Assembly (NCBI GenBank): GCA_029667085.1
Contig: JARUHJ010000005.1
Coordinates: 186,001-250,000 of the forward strand
Source: Deltaproteobacteria bacterium IMCC39524
GTDB lineage: Bacteria; Desulfobacterota; Desulfuromonadia; Desulfuromonadales; BM103
Direction of reading: 5' to 3'
Length of the DNA stretch: 64,000 nucleotides
Below the pieces are notes generated by a model. The model did not search any database, was not told the DNA's origin, and worked only from the letters and a program-made list of their open reading frames with translations. The position numbers and the translations under genes were made by a program. Below, piece by piece: positions 1 to 13,695 of the stretch (positions are counted from its first letter, which is position 1; every line of letters starts with the position of its first letter).

Positions 1-2866
1 TACCTAAATCGGCATTCACGCCAATATAATAGGTCTCCCCAAGCATCACCCATGACGGCACCAAAAATGTGAAATCGGCTGTCTCTGCCTCCCCTGGCTG
101 CATCGTAGTGAGCCTTATATAATCGAGGAGGATGTCATCACTTGTCACCTGGCAGTCGGTTGAAATGTAGATAGCAACATAATTGTCGAGCGGAACCTTG
201 ATATTGCCGACATTACTGATGGTAACGGTCACCGTCATAAGGTCCCCGGCCTCTGCTGTCGCAGGGACCCCCGTAACACTATCGACGACCAGATCATAAT
301 GATCGATCTGATCGAGGACGAAATCGACCGTTGCCACATTCGCTAAAAACTCAGAAGCCGCAATATTGGCTATTACAGGATCAACATAAACCACCCCCGT
401 AACATCGACATGAATAGGTAAACCCTCTGCCTGCACTACCGGCACACGATAGAAACCGTCGGCATCTGTCTTCACCGACGAGTAAGCAACCGCTGACGAG
501 TAAACTTCAATGCCTGCGAGAGGATTGGTTGTCACAGCGTCAGTCACAACACCTTCAACCCATCCATCAATGACGTTAAGATTAAAGTTCTGGCCCACCT
601 GATCACCACCGGATGTATCGACGGCAATTTTGTTTCCGACGAAGCCAAGCGGGTTGACAATGCGCTGCTTCGGCATAACGTTCCAGTCGGCGGCTGAGGA
701 GACATTCAGACTGTAGTTACCTGAAACGTCACTCACACCATAGGCACGCTCACCGCTACCGTTCGTGGCGACGACAGGAATCCCGCCGGTCGGCACAGCT
801 GAAGCCAATACCTGACCACTGATGGTGGCCGTTGCAGCCGGCAGATCGAAATCAACCGCTCCGACACAGGCCGAAAGCTGCCGGGCTGCGCCATCATCGA
901 CATACCCTTTCAAAGATGGGCTAAAATCGTCGTGCCCCGCCAGTTCAACATGGCCCGCTAGGACTGGGTCGAAACAAATGGCCGGTACAGCCAGGCTGTA
1001 GTTGCCGTTGAGGTCGGTCAGGCCAACGCTGTACACACCTGAACAGTTCGCAATAATTTCGACACCATCGATGCCACTACCGGAACTGTGCACCTGACCA
1101 TTGATGGCATCAACATCGCTGGCAAGGTTTATATTGTAGCTGCCAGCCGGCCCGCTGATTGTGATCGGAGCAGGTACATTGGCGGCATAGCCGTAGGCCA
1201 TCGGGTAGACCAGATAATCACCGGCAGCCGCTGCGTCGAAGACATAAAAACCAGAAGAATTAGTCAGGGCGTAGCCATAGATATTGCCCCATTTGTCTTC
1301 GAAGCGCAGGAACGCACCGGTCACCAGTGTGCTGCCATCCGATTCGTAAAGTAGTCCACTCAGGTTATCAGGCTGACCAACCTGGCTGACGCTGAATACC
1401 GAACTGTCCGTACCGGTACCGGCACCGACGGTGATGTCGGTAGCGCGGAAGGAGTAGTCACCAAAGGCATGGAAGCGATCGAGCGTATTGTGGTAATTAA
1501 GAGTTACTGTCGCAACGCCACTACCGTTGGCAACCGCCTGGACCGTGCGAACGACCATGTCCTCGCCACCGATCCCGCCCGGGGCGACATCGACCAGCTG
1601 CTCAAAGAAGATCGTACTCCCCGGAACAGCACCACTGGCCGTAACCACCAGGTCATCCTGGTAGTTGGCCGCAATTGAACCGGCTTGATCATCGCTGACC
1701 GTCAGGTCGTAGATCATGAAAGCGAAGCTGGCCGGTGTCGGATCAACATTCAGAGAAGGATCGGCCGCCCGCACCTCGAAAGTGTACGAGCCGGCGGCTA
1801 AGCCGTTATAGCTTTGCGGGCTGGTACATGTTGAGTAAATGCCACCATCGATCCGGCACTCAAAGGTTGCTGCCGCGTCGTCGCTGAACGAATCGTTGGC
1901 GCTGAAGGTAAAGGTTATATCGGTGACATAAGGAGTAGGTTCCGCACCGCTGTCAATCGACGTTTCTGGCGGAATAGTGTCAACTACATAGACTGTCCGG
2001 GTCACCTGGGTGGCGTCGTTACCGAGGGTATCGGCGGCATCGTAGGTGATGACGTAGGTGCCTAACGAGTTGATATCGACCACATCACCGCCGACCGTAA
2101 CTGCGACACTCCCATAGACGTCATCGTTCGCCGTCGCCCCGGCATCAGTGTAGCTGGTGCCGGCTTCGGCATCGACCGGATCGGAGCCGTTCAGGGTGAT
2201 GACCGGCGGGGTGGTGTCGGAAACAAAAACAACATCTTCGATACGAATTTCATCTATGGAACCATTAAACTTCCATGCATCACCAAAGCCACTGTAACCA
2301 ATCCCTGCTACATCAGTCGGGTCATAATCTCCCGTGAGCGTATTGATTTTTGAGTTTTCTACGACATTGTCGACAGAGATGCTTATCGTTCCATCGGTCG
2401 CGTTTCGCACGCCCTCTATTAAATGCCAGCTATCATCGGAAACGACAGAGGCACTAACCACATCGATTGAATTGGCGATGGCATCCTGAAGAAAGAATTG
2501 CGCTTTCCCGCCAGCAGTAATTCTTAGTGAATAAGCCTTATCTGTATCTTGCTTTGTAAATATCGATTGGATTTCGCCCGTAGAAGAGGTCTTGACCCAA
2601 GCACTTACCTTGAAAGACTCTCCGCTTAAAAAATTGAGAGAAGCATCATTAGGCACTGAAATCGAGTTTGTGCCATCGAAACTGTACGCATTGTCAGCAA
2701 AACTGTTCCTGTCAACCGTCAGTGTTGCGCCGTTCACCGTGCCATGGTTTCCATTGATACTCGCATCGTTGGCGTCACCGCTGAATGGATAGTAAGCTCT
2801 ATCGACGGCATTTGCACTCCCGGTCCAGACCAACAAAAGCAAGACCAGCAATAATAAATTTTTCAT
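1..2866 (-). CDS. Large secreted multidomain surface protein (LamG, Ig-like, carboxypeptidase-regulatory-like and CARDB domains), C-terminus outside window
   Basis: The frame is open for 955 codons from an ATG at 2866 to the window edge, so the C-terminus is missing. Residues 1-20 are a classical signal peptide (MKNLLLLV..., cleavage after ANA). My translation shows a LamG/concanavalin-like fold at about 24-214, a DUF5011/HYR-type Ig domain at about 215-290 (ITLNGSDPVDAEAGTSYTD), another Ig-like domain containing a TFECRIDGG motif at about 291-375, several beta-sandwich repeats of the carboxypeptidase-regulatory type between about 500 and 850 (repeated 'G.V....G..V......TD..G.Y.' patterns), and a CARDB-like domain near 855-955. 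Such proteins are exported and act in adhesion or matrix building; the specific ligand is unknown. A GGAGG-like ribosome site precedes the start. The gene stands behind a GEMM riboswitch and terminator, so its expression is probably set by a cyclic dinucleotide. Family-level call is firm, function is inference. Confidence 0.85.
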   Translation of the reverse strand, partial: MKNLLLLVLLLLVWTGSANAVDRAYYPFSGDANDASINGNHGTVNGATLTVDRNSFADNAYSFDGTNSISVPNDASLNFLSGESFKVSAWVKTSSTGEIQSIFTKQDTDKAYSLRITAGGKAQFFLQDAIANSIDVVSASVVSDDSWHLIEGVRNATDGTISISVDNVVENSKINTLTGDYDPTDVAGIGYSGFGDAWKFNGSIDEIRIEDVVFVSDTTPPVITLNGSDPVDAEAGTSYTDAGATANDDVYGSVAVTVGGDVVDINSLGTYVITYDAADTLGNDATQVTRTVYVVDTIPPETSIDSGAEPTPYVTDITFTFSANDSFSDDAAATFECRIDGGIYSTCTSPQSYNGLAAGSYTFEVRAADPSLNVDPTPASFAFMIYDLTVSDDQAGSIAANYQDDLVVTASGAVPGSTIFFEQLVDVAPGGIGGEDMVVRTVQAVANGSGVATVTLNYHNTLDRFHAFGDYSFRATDITVGAGTGTDSSVFSVSQVGQPDNLSGLLYESDGSTLVTGAFLRFEDKWGNIYGYALTNSSGFYVFDAAAAGDYLVYPMAYGYAANVPAPITISGPAGSYNINLASDVDAINGQVHSSGSGIDGVEIIANCSGVYSVGLTDLNGNYSLAVPAICFDPVLAGHVELAGHDDFSPSLKGYVDDGAARQLSACVGAVDFDLPAATATISGQVLASAVPTGGIPVVATNGSGERAYGVSDVSGNYSLNVSSAADWNVMPKQRIVNPLGFVGNKIAVDTSGGDQVGQNFNLNVIDGWVEGVVTDAVTTNPLAGIEVYSSAVAYSSVKTDADGFYRVPVVQAEGLPIHVDVTGVVYVDPVIANIAASEFLANVATVDFVLDQIDHYDLVVDSVTGVPATAEAGDLMTVTVTISNVGNIKVPLDNYVAIYISTDCQVTSDDILLDYIRLTTMQPGEAETADFTFLVPSWVMLGETYYIGVNADLG

Positions 2867-8992: not shown

Positions 8993-10330
8993 TCAGCAGG
9001 TAATCCTGCGCGCCTCGAGGTAAAAACGTTTTTCATCCGCTTCGCCCATGGAAAAGGTCTTGCGAGGCAAAGCTCCGTCTCGCACGATGGTGCGAAAAAG
9101 ATCGTGCTTTGAGATTGACGGAAGGTAGAAGCCGACGTTGCTTTTCTGCCCTCCAAACCGAGAGACCGCATCATCACCATGGATATAATCGATACGACCT
9201 GAGGCGTGATTCTCCAGGTAAGCATCGAGAAAATTCTGCAAGGTTCCGACTTCGAGAGTCAGTTTCGGATCAGCGATCTCAAGCACACCAAAACGCCCGG
9301 CAGCAACAAAGGGGATCGCGTGCGCCTTACCCGAGTGTTCGGCGGCGGCGGATGCGGAAGCGAGATCGTCATGCCAGGCAATACTGCATGGGGTTCCTGC
9401 CTGACGATAATACTCCTCGGCCTGTTCGAGCAGGTCGTCGGCATCAACATCGAAAAGCACGCGGTGAATGGCTTCGAACTCCAACCCCGGGTCATGGACG
9501 TTAACCAGTTCGATCAAGGCATAACGCGCCGGGTGATCCATGACCTCGGAAGGATCGGAAGCCTCTGTCTTGAGCTGCTCCCAGATGGCCTTGGCCGTGG
9601 CAAAGCTGTGGTTGCCGTCACCCATGGCATAGAGCATGACTTCTTCATCATCGACGTCATAGCGCTTCTGGAAACGTTCTTTGTCCGCCAGGGCCTCGAG
9701 TGCGTTGCCCACTTGCTCGAGGAGCTGTGGCTGATTGACCTTCCAGCCCCGCAGGTGACCACTTGACTGCATAAGCTCAAAGTCATAGGCCTGCTCCAGG
9801 TCGGCCTCGAACAGGGGCTCAATCACGGTCTGCTCGGGATCATCAATCAGCACCATGATATGTGGCAATTCAACTGCCGCATTCTCCCTGACCCGGATAC
9901 GTGGCGGCAAACGATCAACGATTGTACCTTCCGTGGCCCTGATCAAGGTTTTGGAACCGGGACGATAATCGTAGGCCTCCAGATCGAGAGCAACGATCAG
10001 CCCTTTTCGTGACTCCACATGACTGGTCTTGCGATCCAGAAGAATAAAGCCTTTTTCCTGTTCAGCGAGCACACCCTCAGCCAGGTACTGATCCATGCTG
10101 GCATTGATAGCGGCAATCCTTGCGTCACCGTCCTCGTCTTCAAGATAAACTTCAGGAAAAACCAGGCGCAGCGTCGAAGGCTGCTCTGCGACCAGTTGAT
10201 CGACAGCCTGCCAGTATTCCGGCTCGGAAGTGTATTGGTCACAGGCAATCACTGCCCAGCGATTCAGATCAATACCTGCTTGAGGTAAAAGGACGGTCGG
10301 TACTTGCAAGGCCAGTTTAGCGAGATTCAT
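8993..10330 (-). CDS. DUF1015 family protein
   Basis: The 445-residue cytoplasmic protein matches DUF1015 (COG4198), with the family's CDQYTSEPEYW segment near the N-terminus and the AMGDGNHSFATAKAIWE motif in the middle. The biochemical role is not established; the family is often found near serine or aromatic biosynthesis genes, as here. It starts at an ATG at 10330, 32 bases after the small Cys-cluster gene, and is followed by a terminator, so it is probably the last gene of the aroF unit. Confidence 0.85.
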   Translation of the reverse strand: MNLAKLALQVPTVLLPQAGIDLNRWAVIACDQYTSEPEYWQAVDQLVAEQPSTLRLVFPEVYLEDEDGDARIAAINASMDQYLAEGVLAEQEKGFILLDRKTSHVESRKGLIVALDLEAYDYRPGSKTLIRATEGTIVDRLPPRIRVRENAAVELPHIMVLIDDPEQTVIEPLFEADLEQAYDFELMQSSGHLRGWKVNQPQLLEQVGNALEALADKERFQKRYDVDDEEVMLYAMGDGNHSFATAKAIWEQLKTEASDPSEVMDHPARYALIELVNVHDPGLEFEAIHRVLFDVDADDLLEQAEEYYRQAGTPCSIAWHDDLASASAAAEHSGKAHAIPFVAAGRFGVLEIADPKLTLEVGTLQNFLDAYLENHASGRIDYIHGDDAVSRFGGQKSNVGFYLPSISKHDLFRTIVRDGALPRKTFSMGEADEKRFYLEARRITC

Positions 10331-10362: not shown

Positions 10363-10638
10363 TTACTTGACGATCCGCAGATGGGACCCGGAGCCGCCGC
10401 TGTCAGGATCTTCGGGGCCGTCCTGGGGTTCTTCACTTGTTGCACCCTGGAGCATATCCATGTTCGGCAAAGTGTTGGTCGCAACCATCTGCTGTATCCC
10501 CTCAGCCACAGCCAGGCATTGCTTTGTGCAGACCTTACGCACCGGGCACATGGTGCAATCAGCCTCGCCAGCGGCCGCACGCAGGGCATGAATAACAAGG
10601 TCAACACTTTCAATCTGGTTCAGGGGTATTAAAAACAT
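10363..10638 (-). CDS. Small protein with four-cysteine cluster
   Basis: A 91-residue protein of unknown function. Residues 28-41 carry C-x2-C-x5-C-x3-C (CTMCPVRKVCTKQC), a spacing suited to zinc or an iron-sulfur cluster. The C-terminal 30 residues are acidic, Gly/Pro rich and probably disordered. It is sandwiched between aroF (24 bases upstream) and DUF1015 (32 bases downstream) on the same strand, which supports a real gene and a shared transcript controlled by the aromatic leader. Confidence 0.7.
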   Translation of the reverse strand: MFLIPLNQIESVDLVIHALRAAAGEADCTMCPVRKVCTKQCLAVAEGIQQMVATNTLPNMDMLQGATSEEPQDGPEDPDSGGSGSHLRIVK

Positions 10639-10662: not shown

Positions 10663-11682
10663 TTAAAGCGTTTTACCGACAACTTTGGCAAACTCGGCAA
10701 GTTTGGTCATCATCAGCTGAAAATCAGCGGGTCGCAGCGACTGAGGCCCATCGCTCGCAGCAACTTCAGGGTGAGGATGAACTTCGACGATCAGGCCGTC
10801 AGCACCGGCAGCCACCGCAGCGTAACACATACTCGGTACCAGCGAAGCATGACCCGTTGCGTGAGAAGGATCGATGATAATCGGCAGATGGGTCTGCTCT
10901 TGCAGTACGGGTACTGCCGAGATATCCAGAGTATTGCGGGTAGCTGTTTCAAAGGTGCGAATACCCCGCTCACAAAGGATAACCTTCTGGTTGCCTTCGG
11001 AGAGGATGTACTCGGCGCTCATCAAGAATTCCTGGATGGTCGTTGACATGCCGCGTTTGAGAAGAATCGGCTTGTCGAGTGTACCGAGCATTTTGAGCAA
11101 GGCAAAGTTTTGCACGTTACGCGCGCCAACCTGCATCACATCAGCATACTTTGCGACCAGGTCAACATCGCGAGGATTCACGACCTCGGTCACGATCGGT
11201 AACCCGGTTTCTTCGCGGGCCATGGCTAAAAGCTTGAGGCCCTCTTCTTCCATACCCTGGAAGGAATAAGGACTGGAGCGCGGCTTGTAAGCACCGCCAC
11301 GGAGGACAGTTGCGCCTGAGGCCTTGACGGCATGGGCGGTTTCGAGAATCTGCTCCTCGCTCTCTACCGAGCAGGGGCCGGCCATGACCACGAGTTGATC
11401 ACCGCCCACAATAACTCCAGGAGCAATTTCAACCGCAGTCCTCTCCAACTTGACCTCTTTGCTCGCCAACTTGTAGGGCTTGAGGATCGGCACGACATTT
11501 TCTACGCCCGGCATCGATTCAATCGACTGCAGCACAGCCTTGCCTCGCTCATCACCGACAGCACCGACCACATTGCGTGTGTCACCATGAATCACATGAG
11601 GCTTGTAGCCCAACTCCGCAATCCGACTCTCGACCGCTGCCAACTCGTCCTTGCTGGCCCCTTTGCGCATTACTATAATCAT
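10663..11682 (-). CDS. aroF: 3-deoxy-7-phosphoheptulonate synthase (DAHP synthase, type I-beta)
   Basis: Condenses phosphoenolpyruvate and erythrose 4-phosphate, the entry step to the shikimate pathway. The 339-residue protein has the small N-terminal ferredoxin-like regulatory domain (about 1-70, MIIVMRKGAS...) seen in Thermotoga-type enzymes, then the TIM barrel with KPRSSPYSFQGM, GARNVQNF, LKRGMSTTIQEF and the metal-site DPSHATG motif. Upstream lie a leader peptide rich in aromatic residues and two terminators, so it is likely regulated by attenuation as well as by feedback on the enzyme. Confidence 0.95.
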   Translation of the reverse strand: MIIVMRKGASKDELAAVESRIAELGYKPHVIHGDTRNVVGAVGDERGKAVLQSIESMPGVENVVPILKPYKLASKEVKLERTAVEIAPGVIVGGDQLVVMAGPCSVESEEQILETAHAVKASGATVLRGGAYKPRSSPYSFQGMEEEGLKLLAMAREETGLPIVTEVVNPRDVDLVAKYADVMQVGARNVQNFALLKMLGTLDKPILLKRGMSTTIQEFLMSAEYILSEGNQKVILCERGIRTFETATRNTLDISAVPVLQEQTHLPIIIDPSHATGHASLVPSMCYAAVAAGADGLIVEVHPHPEVAASDGPQSLRPADFQLMMTKLAEFAKVVGKTL

Positions 11683-11712
11683 TTTCTCGTCCCCTTTTTG
11701 GGAAAGTTCCGG

Positions 11713-11750
11713 TTAAAAATAAAGGCCGGCAGGGCTTTCCTGGCGGCCTT
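11713..11750 (-). terminator. Second leader terminator directly before aroF
   Basis: On the minus strand AAGGCCG pairs with CGGCCTT, then a C-C mismatch and CAGG/CCTG, closed by AAAGC, followed by TATTTTT. It lies about 30 bases before the aroF start and is a second stop signal between leader peptide and gene. Confidence 0.7.
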
Positions 11751-11771
11751 CATCGTTTACTTTCCCGAAAC

Positions 11772-11812
11772 GAAAAAACCACAGGCGCCCCGATTGAGCC
11801 CGCCCGTGGTTT
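11772..11812 (-). terminator. Attenuator terminator downstream of aromatic leader peptide
   Basis: Minus-strand AACCAC/GUGGUU arms with an inner GGGCG/CGCCU stem are followed by TTTTTTCG. It begins about 25 bases after the leader peptide stop codon, the normal distance for ribosome-mediated attenuation. Confidence 0.75.
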
Positions 11813-11837
11813 CAGTAATTCTATCGACAATCGACCG

Positions 11838-11924
11838 TCAACAGACTTCACCCCGGTCAGGCAAGCCAAAAAAGCTGCCAAACCAAAAGTAAAAACCTGT
11901 AAACAACCAACTTTGAGATTTCAT
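11838..11924 (-). CDS. Aromatic leader peptide of the aroF attenuator
   Basis: A 28-codon frame starts at an ATG at 11924 with GAAGGTGG upstream and ends at a TGA at 11838. Between residues 6 and 19 it holds two Trp, six Phe and one Tyr, including the run FYFWF at 11-15 and a second FF at 18-19; the remaining residues are ordinary. Such a density of Phe, Tyr and Trp codons directly before two terminators and a DAHP synthase gene is what a ribosome-stalling sensor for charged tRNA-Phe, -Tyr and -Trp would look like. The gene for tRNA-Phe begins only 130 bases away on the other strand. The antiterminator pairing was not resolved by eye. Confidence 0.75.
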   Translation of the reverse strand: MKSQSWLFTGFYFWFGSFFGLPDRGEVC

Positions 11925-12014
11925 GCCGACGCCACCTTCATGAAGTTTTTGAGACTTTGTTGGTAACAAAAAGCACATCGGAAAGCAAGCAAAGAATCAG
12001 CGACAGCTTTTTTC

Positions 12015-12043
12015 TTGACATAAAGTTCGCATTTGGTTACAAA
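12015..12043 (+). promoter_or_regulatory. sigma-70 type promoter of tRNA-Phe
   Basis: TTGACA at 12015-12020, a 17-base spacer, and TACAAA at 12038-12043 lie just upstream of the tRNA-Phe gene that begins at 12054. Confidence 0.7.
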
Positions 12044-12053
12044 TCCTTCTCCC

Positions 12054-12129
<76 letters not shown>

Positions 12130-12140
12130 TTTACTTAGTA

Positions 12141-12178
12141 AAAGCAGCGGCTTACCGGAGTCGCTGCTTTTCTTTTTT
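12141..12178 (+). terminator. Terminator after tRNA-Phe
   Basis: AAAGCAGCG at 12141-12149 pairs with CGCTGCTTT at 12162-12170, followed by TCTTTTTTC. It is supplied by the integrated element. Confidence 0.75.
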
Positions 12179-12179
12179 C

Positions 12180-12200
12180 TTCGCGCACTCTTCGCGCACT
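12180..12200 (+). repeat. Tandem TTCGCGCACT repeats, possible integrase arm sites
   Basis: Two exact copies of TTCGCGCACT at 12180-12189 and 12191-12200, 11 bases apart, lie between attL and the integrase gene. A related TTCGCGCATC is at 24056-24065, 45 bases inside attR. The placement suits arm-type binding sites for the integrase; this is inference. Confidence 0.4.
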
Positions 12201-12249
12201 TTCTATGCTACAATAGGTTCATCTTTAGCTGTTTTCATAAAGGTGCCCT

Positions 12250-13695
12250 ATGTCAGATAAACAGCAAACACCCCAACCCCTCAATATTGTTAACAAAGAT
12301 GAACGCACCATATGCAATGGTGCTGTCGTCCTATTCAAGCGAAACCGAAGCAAACGTTGGCAAGCCCGTATACGTCGAAACAGTGGAGAATGGGTTGTTT
12401 ACAGTACGAAGTGTGCTGACTTTGAAAAGGCTATTGCTGTAGCTGAAGAGCGCTACAGAGAGATACAGTATGCGCAGAAGACAGGTAAGATTGACGTAAC
12501 ACGTAGGTTCTCAAGCATATGTCAGTTATGCCGCAAAGAACTGCTGGATGAAGCAGAAAGAACGAGCCAGCAAACACCCAAAAACTACGTTCAGGTTATA
12601 GACAAATATATCCAGCCAATACTTGGCAGTTACATGTGCCACAACATCGACACTGCTGCCCTGCGTATGTACTCAGACAAGCGCAAAGAGATGATAGGCC
12701 ATGCGCCGACCCAGTCCACTATTGCCACCCACAATTCAGCCCTCAAATATCTCTTCCGCAAAGCACAAGAAAAGAACTTCATCAAGTTCATACCCAAAAC
12801 CATAAATGACGGCGTTAAGGGGAAAAGGCGACCATACTTTAACAACAAAGAAATGAAAAAGCTCAATGCCAACATGTGGCGCTACATTCAGCACAGCGAA
12901 AAACTGCTTCACCAAAAAGGTCGCAATGGTATTGAGAACATAAGCCAGAAAACATATTGGATAAGAGAACTGCTAGTAGACGTTGTGCGCATACTGGTTA
13001 ACACAGGCATGAGACCTGGCAGTGAGATCCTTAGCTTAAAATGGAAAAACTTGAGCATCACCAAGCAGCACGACAAGGAAAGCATCCAGTTCTCGTTGCC
13101 ACACAGCAAAACAATAAAGCGTGTTGTTATTGGCTACGAACCCCATGTTCGTGAAGATGGCGTTAAATACGGCTGCTGGAAGCCGTTGGAAAATATCAAA
13201 AACAGATTCGACAATTTGAAAGATTTGGATTGGGACAAGCTGTTTGAATGCGACGAGTATATCTTCCGCTATCCAAACGGCGAGCTTGTAGTACAAGAGC
13301 GACTCACCAAAGCATTCAAACGTATGCTGAAATGGATAAAAGTTGACGGCAAGGAAGATGGATTATTGAAAGATGACTTTGGAGATGACAGAACCCTTTA
13401 CTCTCTTCGTCATACTTATGCATCACGTATGCGCTACAAAGACATTAGCTTCGACGACTTAAGTGTACAAATGGGCACACAAGTAAATATGCTTGAGAAG
13501 CACTACAGCCATTTCACAGTTAGCGACAACCCAAACAAATTTGCAGGACATGAAAGACGTGCAGAAAAGGACAAACAAAAAGCGGCACAAGACAACAACC
13601 AGATAATACAGCAGCTACTAGAGCAGAACGCAAAAAAGGATGGGCAGATACAACAACTACTGGAACAGCTATTAAACAAAGAGAATGACAACTAA
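12250..13695 (+). CDS. Tyrosine-type site-specific integrase
   Basis: A 481-residue phage-type integrase. An N-terminal DNA-binding part (about 20-180) precedes the catalytic domain, where R255 (NTGMRPGSE), R387 and H388 in SLRHTYASR, and the nucleophile Y419 (EKHYSHF) are visible. The first His of the usual HxxR box is Tyr (Y384) and the box III His is Thr (T410), so it belongs to a divergent branch. The C-terminal 50 residues are a Gln-rich coiled coil (repeated QQLLEQ). It starts at the ATG at 12250 with AAGGTG upstream and sits next to attL, as expected for the enzyme that integrates the island. Confidence 0.9.
   Translation: MSDKQQTPQPLNIVNKDERTICNGAVVLFKRNRSKRWQARIRRNSGEWVVYSTKCADFEKAIAVAEERYREIQYAQKTGKIDVTRRFSSICQLCRKELLDEAERTSQQTPKNYVQVIDKYIQPILGSYMCHNIDTAALRMYSDKRKEMIGHAPTQSTIATHNSALKYLFRKAQEKNFIKFIPKTINDGVKGKRRPYFNNKEMKKLNANMWRYIQHSEKLLHQKGRNGIENISQKTYWIRELLVDVVRILVNTGMRPGSEILSLKWKNLSITKQHDKESIQFSLPHSKTIKRVVIGYEPHVREDGVKYGCWKPLENIKNRFDNLKDLDWDKLFECDEYIFRYPNGELVVQERLTKAFKRMLKWIKVDGKEDGLLKDDFGDDRTLYSLRHTYASRMRYKDISFDDLSVQMGTQVNMLEKHYSHFTVSDNPNKFAGHERRAEKDKQKAAQDNNQIIQQLLEQNAKKDGQIQQLLEQLLNKENDN

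Follow-up and report, generated by a model that had tools for sequence, protein, structure and literature searches.

The window, by which we mean the whole 64 kb stretch of DNA analysed here, carries on its minus strand an aroF gene for DAHP synthase that starts with an ATG at 11682 and is preceded by a short open reading frame and two hairpins. The features on which the argument draws are listed below by window coordinates.

8993 to 10330, minus strand: gene for a DUF1015 protein, in the window's clade a likely member of the aroF operon, from synteny
10363 to 10638, minus strand: 91-residue, Cys-containing open reading frame, likely in the aroF operon, from synteny
10663 to 11682, minus strand: aroF, DAHP synthase with a ferredoxin-like N-terminal domain (TIGR01361, PRK08673), the putatively controlled gene
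11718 to 11754, minus strand: hairpin 2 (putative terminator 2), made of segments 5 and 6, with the tail TTTATTTTT at 11723-11715
11775 to 11787, minus strand: segment 4 (CGCCTGTGGTTTT), 3′ arm of putative terminator 1, with a T6 tract at 11778-11773
11801 to 11813, minus strand: segment 3 (GAAACCACGGGCG), 5′ arm of putative terminator 1, from hairpin search and fold simulation
11838 to 11924, minus strand: leader peptide gene MKSQSWLFTGFYFWFGSFFGLPDRGEVC, 28 codons, with F11, Y12, F13, W14 and F15 as likely control codons
11858 to 11867, minus strand: segment 2 (GGCTTGCCTG), within the leader gene, 5′ half of the predicted antiterminator, from duplex energy and family covariation
11875 to 11884, minus strand: segment 1 (GGTTTGGCAG), predicted partner of segment 2 when the leader is untranslated
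11932 to 11938, minus strand: Shine-Dalgarno-like AAGGTGG of the leader, 7 nt 5′ of its ATG, read directly

The 91-residue open reading frame, whose product has a Cys cluster of the CTMCPVRKVC type, is without a Pfam or NCBIfam match. On the aroF strand and just 3′ of that gene, it occurs in all of L059-L096 apart from L072, L075 and L087, whose loci include less than 130 nt of DNA 3′ of aroF; it adjoins aroF across the Desulfuromonadales loci having enough DNA, and is absent from L097. The DUF1015 gene stands beside aroF only in the nearer Desulfuromonadales, with serA and/or serC often next, and the same search found neither of the two genes near Geobacter loci. From spacing and synteny, joint control of aroF, the 91-residue frame and DUF1015 is plausible. 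A second DAHP synthase in the window genome (52% identical) has no such leader upstream, and no open reading frame with more than 5 aromatics per 14 residues was found upstream of L247 (called a putative trpE from its neighbour genes), L248 or L249 (pheA); L247 and L248 match PF00425, L249 matches PF00800, and the weak upstream frame of L247 is without Trp. On the other side of the leader, a tRNA-Phe(GAA) gene (12054-12129, plus strand) is divergent to the Phe-rich leader at a distance of about 130 nt, and a leader sensor and a tRNA that it possibly senses thus share an intergenic region. Among the 22 Desulfuromonadales loci scanned, 17 carry a tRNA-Phe gene, which in 15 lies divergently no more than 500 nt from aroF; the three Geobacterales loci scanned have none. 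Directly 3′ of this tRNA gene is a phage-type integrase gene (12250-13695, plus strand) with a Pfam score just below the cut-off; its position suggests an integrated element with the tRNA as its site.

An earlier, sequence-only reading had placed an unlisted 28-codon leader with two Trp, six Phe and one Tyr upstream of aroF, followed by two tandem terminators and then DAHP synthase. Both statements are borne out, the leader by direct reading of the sequence, and the putative terminators and the enzyme by our own hairpin search and the match to TIGR01361. The leader runs from an ATG at 11924 to the end of a TGA at 11838 on the minus strand, has the core WLFTGFYFWFGSFF, and contains W6, F8, F11, Y12, F13, W14, F15, F18 and F19. 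Its aromatic density, 9 in 14 residues, does not arise by chance: when the 500-nt region upstream of aroF was dinucleotide-shuffled 2000 times, it was never reached; all other open reading frames in the window stay at or below 7 per 14. The leader region also folds with a z score of −3.9, equalled by 1 of 200 dinucleotide shuffles. A short predicted frame in which codons for the pathway's own products cluster, as expected of an attenuator, is therefore present, and a predicted intrinsic terminator lies between it and the gene: terminator 1, GAAACCACGGGCG / CGCCTGTGGTTTT, extends from 11813 to 11775. Hairpin 2 has the arms GATGAAGGCCGCCAGG / CCTGCCGGCCTTTATT. A simple terminator scan of the minus strand listed neither hairpin, and our own hairpin search recovered both in the window. 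A candidate second leader frame over hairpin 2 (11679-11753, with an ATGA overlap with aroF) was rejected, being broken in close relatives by a stop in L004 and the loss of the ATG in L007. An outer helix around hairpin 2 (11682-11773, minus strand), ending near the aroF ribosome site, appears in 56 of 69 Desulfuromonadales folds, though its U- and A-rich ends pair easily.

The sequence-only reading had called for a search for a competing antiterminator, and such a fold is predicted: segment 2, at the end of the leader gene, can base-pair with segment 3, which forms the 5′ arm of terminator 1, and the two covary across the family. In 45 sequences from two orders, an 8-bp core pairing GTCTGCCC with GGGCAGAC has standard pairs in 98.3% of cells. 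Neither this percentage nor the covariation score was reached in any of 500 shuffles, slid registers gave 32-45%, and changes on both sides were found in 4 of the 8 pairs, a number reached by 12 of 500 shuffles. Among 38 Geobacterales, a 9-bp 2:3 helix is 95.3% paired and a protecting 4-bp 1:2 helix 96.7%, with pairs changed on both sides no more numerous than in shuffles; alignment A2, which contains two registers, was left uncounted. For 140 sequences the mean 2:3 duplex energy is −22.4 kcal/mol with native partners and −19.2 with swapped ones, and in 76 of them the native duplex falls in the top 1% relative to shuffles of segment 3; in the window it is −18.2 kcal/mol. Single-sequence support for the predicted 2:3 pairing is thus moderate. 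All shuffles and permutations here are uncorrected for phylogeny, the sequences being related.

What segment 2 encodes differs between groups in a telling way. Leaders in Desulfuromonadia read it as P-S-A-R or similar, those of family f53 as P-P-V-G, and those at loci labelled Syntrophaceae, Desulfobacterales and others as V-C-P (the PSA-like class being a catch-all of 117), and these tails have no peptide in common, yet carry the same pairing RNA. Because segment 2 is read in all three frames, the comparison indicates that it is the RNA, and not the peptide, that is conserved at the leader end. Elsewhere in the leader, beyond the aromatic run and the antiterminator, the sequence varies freely.

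Stalls were simulated on the window sequence with the RNA taken as free from 13 nt beyond the A-site codon. Before segment 4 is made, ribosomes stalled at F11, Y12, F13, W14, F15 or F18 leave eight segment 3 bases paired upstream; a stall at F19 leaves six, and stalls at W6 or F8 leave one. With a ribosome at the stop codon, or with none, terminator 1 forms in the simulation. The effective stall stretch, FYFWF, includes codons for all three aromatic amino acids, and the predicted antiterminator cannot coexist with the terminator: a stall exposes it, and a ribosome at the stop codon hides it. Once segment 4 has been made, terminator 1 outweighs the antiterminator at equilibrium at every stall position in the window, so that on this model the window switch must be kinetic, decided by timing, as attenuators of the trp/phe/his type are generally held to be. 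In the relative L144, the modelled antiterminator holds for stalls at F14-F18 even after segment 4 has been made.

The element is not confined to the window's close kin. For aroF orthologues, matches came from 57 of 58 relatives, from 182 of the 194 members of a class sample and from 168 of the 297 in a phylum sample, together with 80 named contigs, and upstream DNA was read for part of them; the sets overlap in species, many named loci being the same genomes as those under G handles (L208 is L114, and L069 is L016). The sequence-only reading had also proposed an alignment in related Desulfuromonadales, and there aromatic leaders are kept: with at least 7 aromatics per 14 residues, they lie upstream of aroF in 53 of 55 regions, the two others being L016, truncated at 197 nt, and L036, which is weakly homologous. 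The same holds for 39 of 40 Geobacterales regions (L140 is the exception) and 56 of the 80 named loci, with none in the 20 named loci labelled Nitrospinota/Nitrospina(les/ceae), Nitrospirae, Tectomicrobia, Firmicutes or only 'bacterium'. Outside Desulfuromonadia, 27 of 57 phylum regions have a leader, the one in L234 being considered spurious, and 30 are without one at this threshold; L216 among the 57 is not anchored on a gene start and L186 spans only 210 nt. L215, sampled as the region upstream of one aroF of family f53, has a cobalamin riboswitch at 256-421 (plus strand, 85.7 bits). Near-identical leaders were collapsed (109 to 87, and more later), L234, L197 and L036 were dropped as spurious or weak, and 147 non-redundant leaders were kept at the threshold of 7 per 14, or 6 in the last batch. 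All three aromatic residues occur in 131 of these 147, Trp in 140 and Tyr in 139, with means of 6.1 Phe, 2.4 Tyr and 1.2 Trp per leader. In 140 of the 147 the leader is followed by a predicted terminator 1 with 8 bp or more and no fewer than 5 U in 9, and in 87 leaders the distance from frame to terminator is 14-45 nt.

Hairpin 2 was found in 136 of the 147, with a tail of very variable U content, and in usable form with at least 3 U in 123, the basis of the statistics for pairing between segments 4 and 5. This pairing was judged by a mirror control (3:6) and by permutation of partners in place of a formal pair count on alignments A1 (from which four genus-g59 sequences and L116 were omitted) and A4 (made of 32 of 44 prepared sequences), because MAFFT moved hairpin arms between subgroups in both. 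In the 123 sequences the 4:5 duplex averages −15.4 kcal/mol against −10.9 for 3:6, and it is the stronger in 104 and the weaker in 19 (stronger in 39 of 43 Geobacterales, 46 of 57 Desulfuromonadales, 10 of 13 with the VCP tail, 2 of 2 with PPVG and 7 of 8 others). When partners were permuted, the native 4:5 mean was attained in 0 of 2000 trials outside Desulfuromonadales and 5 of 2000 inside; for 3:6 the figures were 0 of 2000 and 676 of 2000. Part of the likeness between the two hairpins is therefore general, since the mirror pairing also exceeds permutations outside Desulfuromonadales. Segment 4 is complementary to segment 5 in many relatives, among them L112 (GTCCTCGGC with GCCGGGGAC) and L106/L114 (GTCCATGGC with GCCATGGAC); in the latter two, a strong U tract follows hairpin 2 and none follows hairpin 1. 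L161 and L177, a close pair, differ by GGC to GAC in segment 4, matched by GCC to GTC in segment 5. In the window, the predicted 4:5 duplex is −12.5 kcal/mol and 32 of 100 shuffles are as good. The two-stage switch of the sequence-only reading therefore stands in part: coupling of the two terminators is supported in relatives by sequence comparison, but a 4:5 relay is weak in the window itself. What the comparison brings out is the leader, the predicted terminator 1, 2:3 covariation and, in relatives, 4:5 complementarity.

A covariance model of the element (R1, with the window in its training set) recovers a single site in the window genome, its own, and at an E value of 0.001 it has hits in 52 of 297 phylum genomes. 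Of 14 matches examined, 11 have an aromatic leader and L262, L265 and L267 have none by our criteria; L267, which is also without a clear gene, is probably false. In a protein scan of 8 proteins at 7 loci, the element lies 5′ of DAHP synthases in L261, L264 and L272, with L266 below the cut-off, and 5′ of the phenylacetate-CoA ligase PaaK in L263 (at the cut-off) and L274 (just below it); L258, L262 and L277 were called PaaK-like from the similarity of their N-termini. In L269 it precedes a gene for 2-amino-3,7-dideoxy-D-threo-hept-6-ulosonate (ADTH) synthase, a non-homologous entry enzyme, which is followed by a 3-dehydroquinate synthase II gene cut by the end of the locus; the pair (3-1411, minus strand) makes up an archaeal-type pathway entry. 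Predicted 4:5 duplexes at such loci reach −24.3 (L263), −23.0 (L258), −21.7 (L269) and −17.2 kcal/mol (L274). Synthesis of aromatic amino acids from arylacetates is a known anaerobic route, and a putative starvation switch on PaaK suggests that the ligase has such a biosynthetic role.

We consider it very probable that the element subjects aroF to ribosome-mediated transcription attenuation, so that DAHP synthase expression follows the availability of charged aromatic tRNAs. When Phe-, Tyr- and Trp-tRNA are ample, a ribosome at the leader stop codon would cover segment 2, and terminator 1 (3:4) would end transcription; any polymerase passing it would next encounter hairpin 2 (5:6). Under shortage of an aromatic tRNA, a ribosome halted in FYFWF would cover segment 1, letting 2:3 pair and block terminator 1. 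Segment 4, left free, could in much of the family go on to pair with segment 5 and disarm terminator 2 as well, so that one stall would open both gates via 4:5. If the leader is untranslated, 1:2 would form and transcription would stop. Stalling, termination, the identity of the amino acids that act and a relay in the window genome are the parts of this scheme that we infer. The central proposal of the sequence-only reading, an aromatic attenuator of the trp/phe type at the first shikimate enzyme, is supported by the comparison, in which it has a predicted antiterminator and appears conserved far beyond the order. The broader proposition, that a phylum-wide RNA family uses one stall to open two serial terminators by relay on DAHP synthase, ADTH synthase and phenylacetate-CoA ligase, we hold with even confidence for and against; if it is true, its presence on the ligase would mean that this enzyme makes aromatic amino acids from arylacetates.

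Two other accounts keep the attenuator and differ on its inputs or on its second stage. In practice the switch may answer to a single amino acid, most likely Phe, with the Tyr and Trp codons as bystanders, and we regard this as possible, if on the doubtful side. Phe is by far the commonest leader residue, a divergent tRNA-Phe lies within 500 nt of aroF at the 15 of 22 Desulfuromonadales loci noted above, and the Phe-Tyr-Phe leader of Corynebacterium glutamicum aroR is described as answering Phe limitation and not Tyr limitation (PMC11802643). Against these stand the near-universal presence of Trp and Tyr in the 147 leaders, the position of Trp14 within the effective stall stretch, and the finding of no attenuator before the putative trpE or the pheA in the window genome. 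It is likewise conceivable, though we lean the other way, that hairpin 2 is uncoupled from the leader, an independent element that tempers or insulates the aroF mRNA and resembles hairpin 1 because such hairpins are common in these genomes. The weakness of 4:5 in the window, the excess of 3:6 over permutations outside Desulfuromonadales, and the absence or poor quality of hairpin 2 in several Desulfuromonadales (e.g. L045, L047, L051, L055) would fit such independence, and the outer helix reaching to near the aroF ribosome site suggests another role for the hairpin. Yet 4:5 exceeds its mirror in 104 of 123 sequences and survives permutation of partners, the hairpin 1 of L106 and L114, lacking a U tract, could matter only as a relay, and a strong uncoupled terminator would block the antiterminated message too.

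The remaining accounts dispense with attenuation by tRNA supply altogether. TnaC is an arrest peptide for Trp, and the nascent leader peptide could by analogy be a programmed arrest peptide that senses free aromatic amino acids; the tail RPSARGEG and its variants are indeed strongly conserved in Desulfuromonadia. The same RNA core, however, yields unrelated tails in three frames and its conserved bases covary with segment 3, and we rejected this reading, which we consider very improbable, since the conserved tail is the same RNA read in three frames. That the frame is a gene for a small functional protein, with the terminators downstream unrelated to it, deserves almost no credence: the frame is conserved and has a ribosome site, but its sequence is free to vary outside the aromatic run and the antiterminator, its distance to terminator 1 stays within the 14-45 nt range in 87 leaders, and similar leaders with the same RNA element precede other aromatic genes.

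The attenuator reading adds an aromatic attenuator family to the phylum of Geobacter and its relatives, for which we found none in the open-access literature. It would place sensing of all three aromatic amino acids at the entry to the pathway, as against a putative trpE and a pheA without attenuators in the window genome, and a coupled double terminator would explain why a second terminator stands between the switch and the gene. One RNA core in three frames is also a clear natural example of selection on RNA structure and not on peptide.

Rfam amino acid leader families include Trp_leader, Phe_leader and His_leader, and a comparative study of proteobacterial attenuators was reportedly published in 2004. 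No Rfam leader family matched window positions 11400-12300 up to an E value of 10, or 20 relatives at 0.5, and the T-box riboswitch model had no match in the window region or the 20 relatives. Searches of the open-access literature found no aromatic attenuators in Geobacter, Desulfovibrio or Deltaproteobacteria, and no attenuators with tandem terminators; as open-access papers were the ones covered, priority is not certain. The trpL and pheL attenuators follow a 1:2 / 2:3 / 3:4 fold logic with Trp or Phe codons, and the window element shares this logic; they are branch-specific with one amino acid each, whereas here codons for all three stand before the entry enzyme. These two leaders are known from Escherichia coli (PMC11802643), for whose aroF attenuation had earlier been supposed (PMC8632094, PMC2659441), to judge from the parts of these sources available to us. 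In Acholeplasma, the uORFC-13-1 motif before aroF is a proposed attenuator with a candidate Phe-coding upstream frame and a terminator (PMC8632094); compared by its description, as far as available to us, it is limited to Acholeplasma and unassigned environmental DNA, and its U run codes for at least one Phe.

A close precedent in function is the aroR-aroF attenuator of Corynebacterium glutamicum, reportedly described by Neshat et al. in 2014. Ribosome-mediated attenuation of DAHP synthase is known there (PMC11802643, PMC4046766), and as in the window a leader with Phe and Tyr precedes the synthase gene. Compared by description, in the portions of those accounts at hand, aroR belongs to an unrelated phylum, has Phe-Tyr-Phe with no Trp mentioned, and responds to Phe only; unlike the window family, it is described there with no phylum-wide family and no second coupled terminator. 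In fold, a near parallel is the Salmonella enterica his attenuator, in whose description, as available to us, B:C and D:E oppose the E:F terminator (PMC4046918), much as 2:3 and 4:5 would oppose 5:6 here. In that description E:F is the terminator, unlike the present family, in which hairpin 3:4 usually has a U tract of its own; the his leader has His codons, and here the codons are aromatic and the proposed coupling would join two terminators. That DAHP synthase can be attenuated is itself known; it is the family, its spread and the coupled double terminator that look new.
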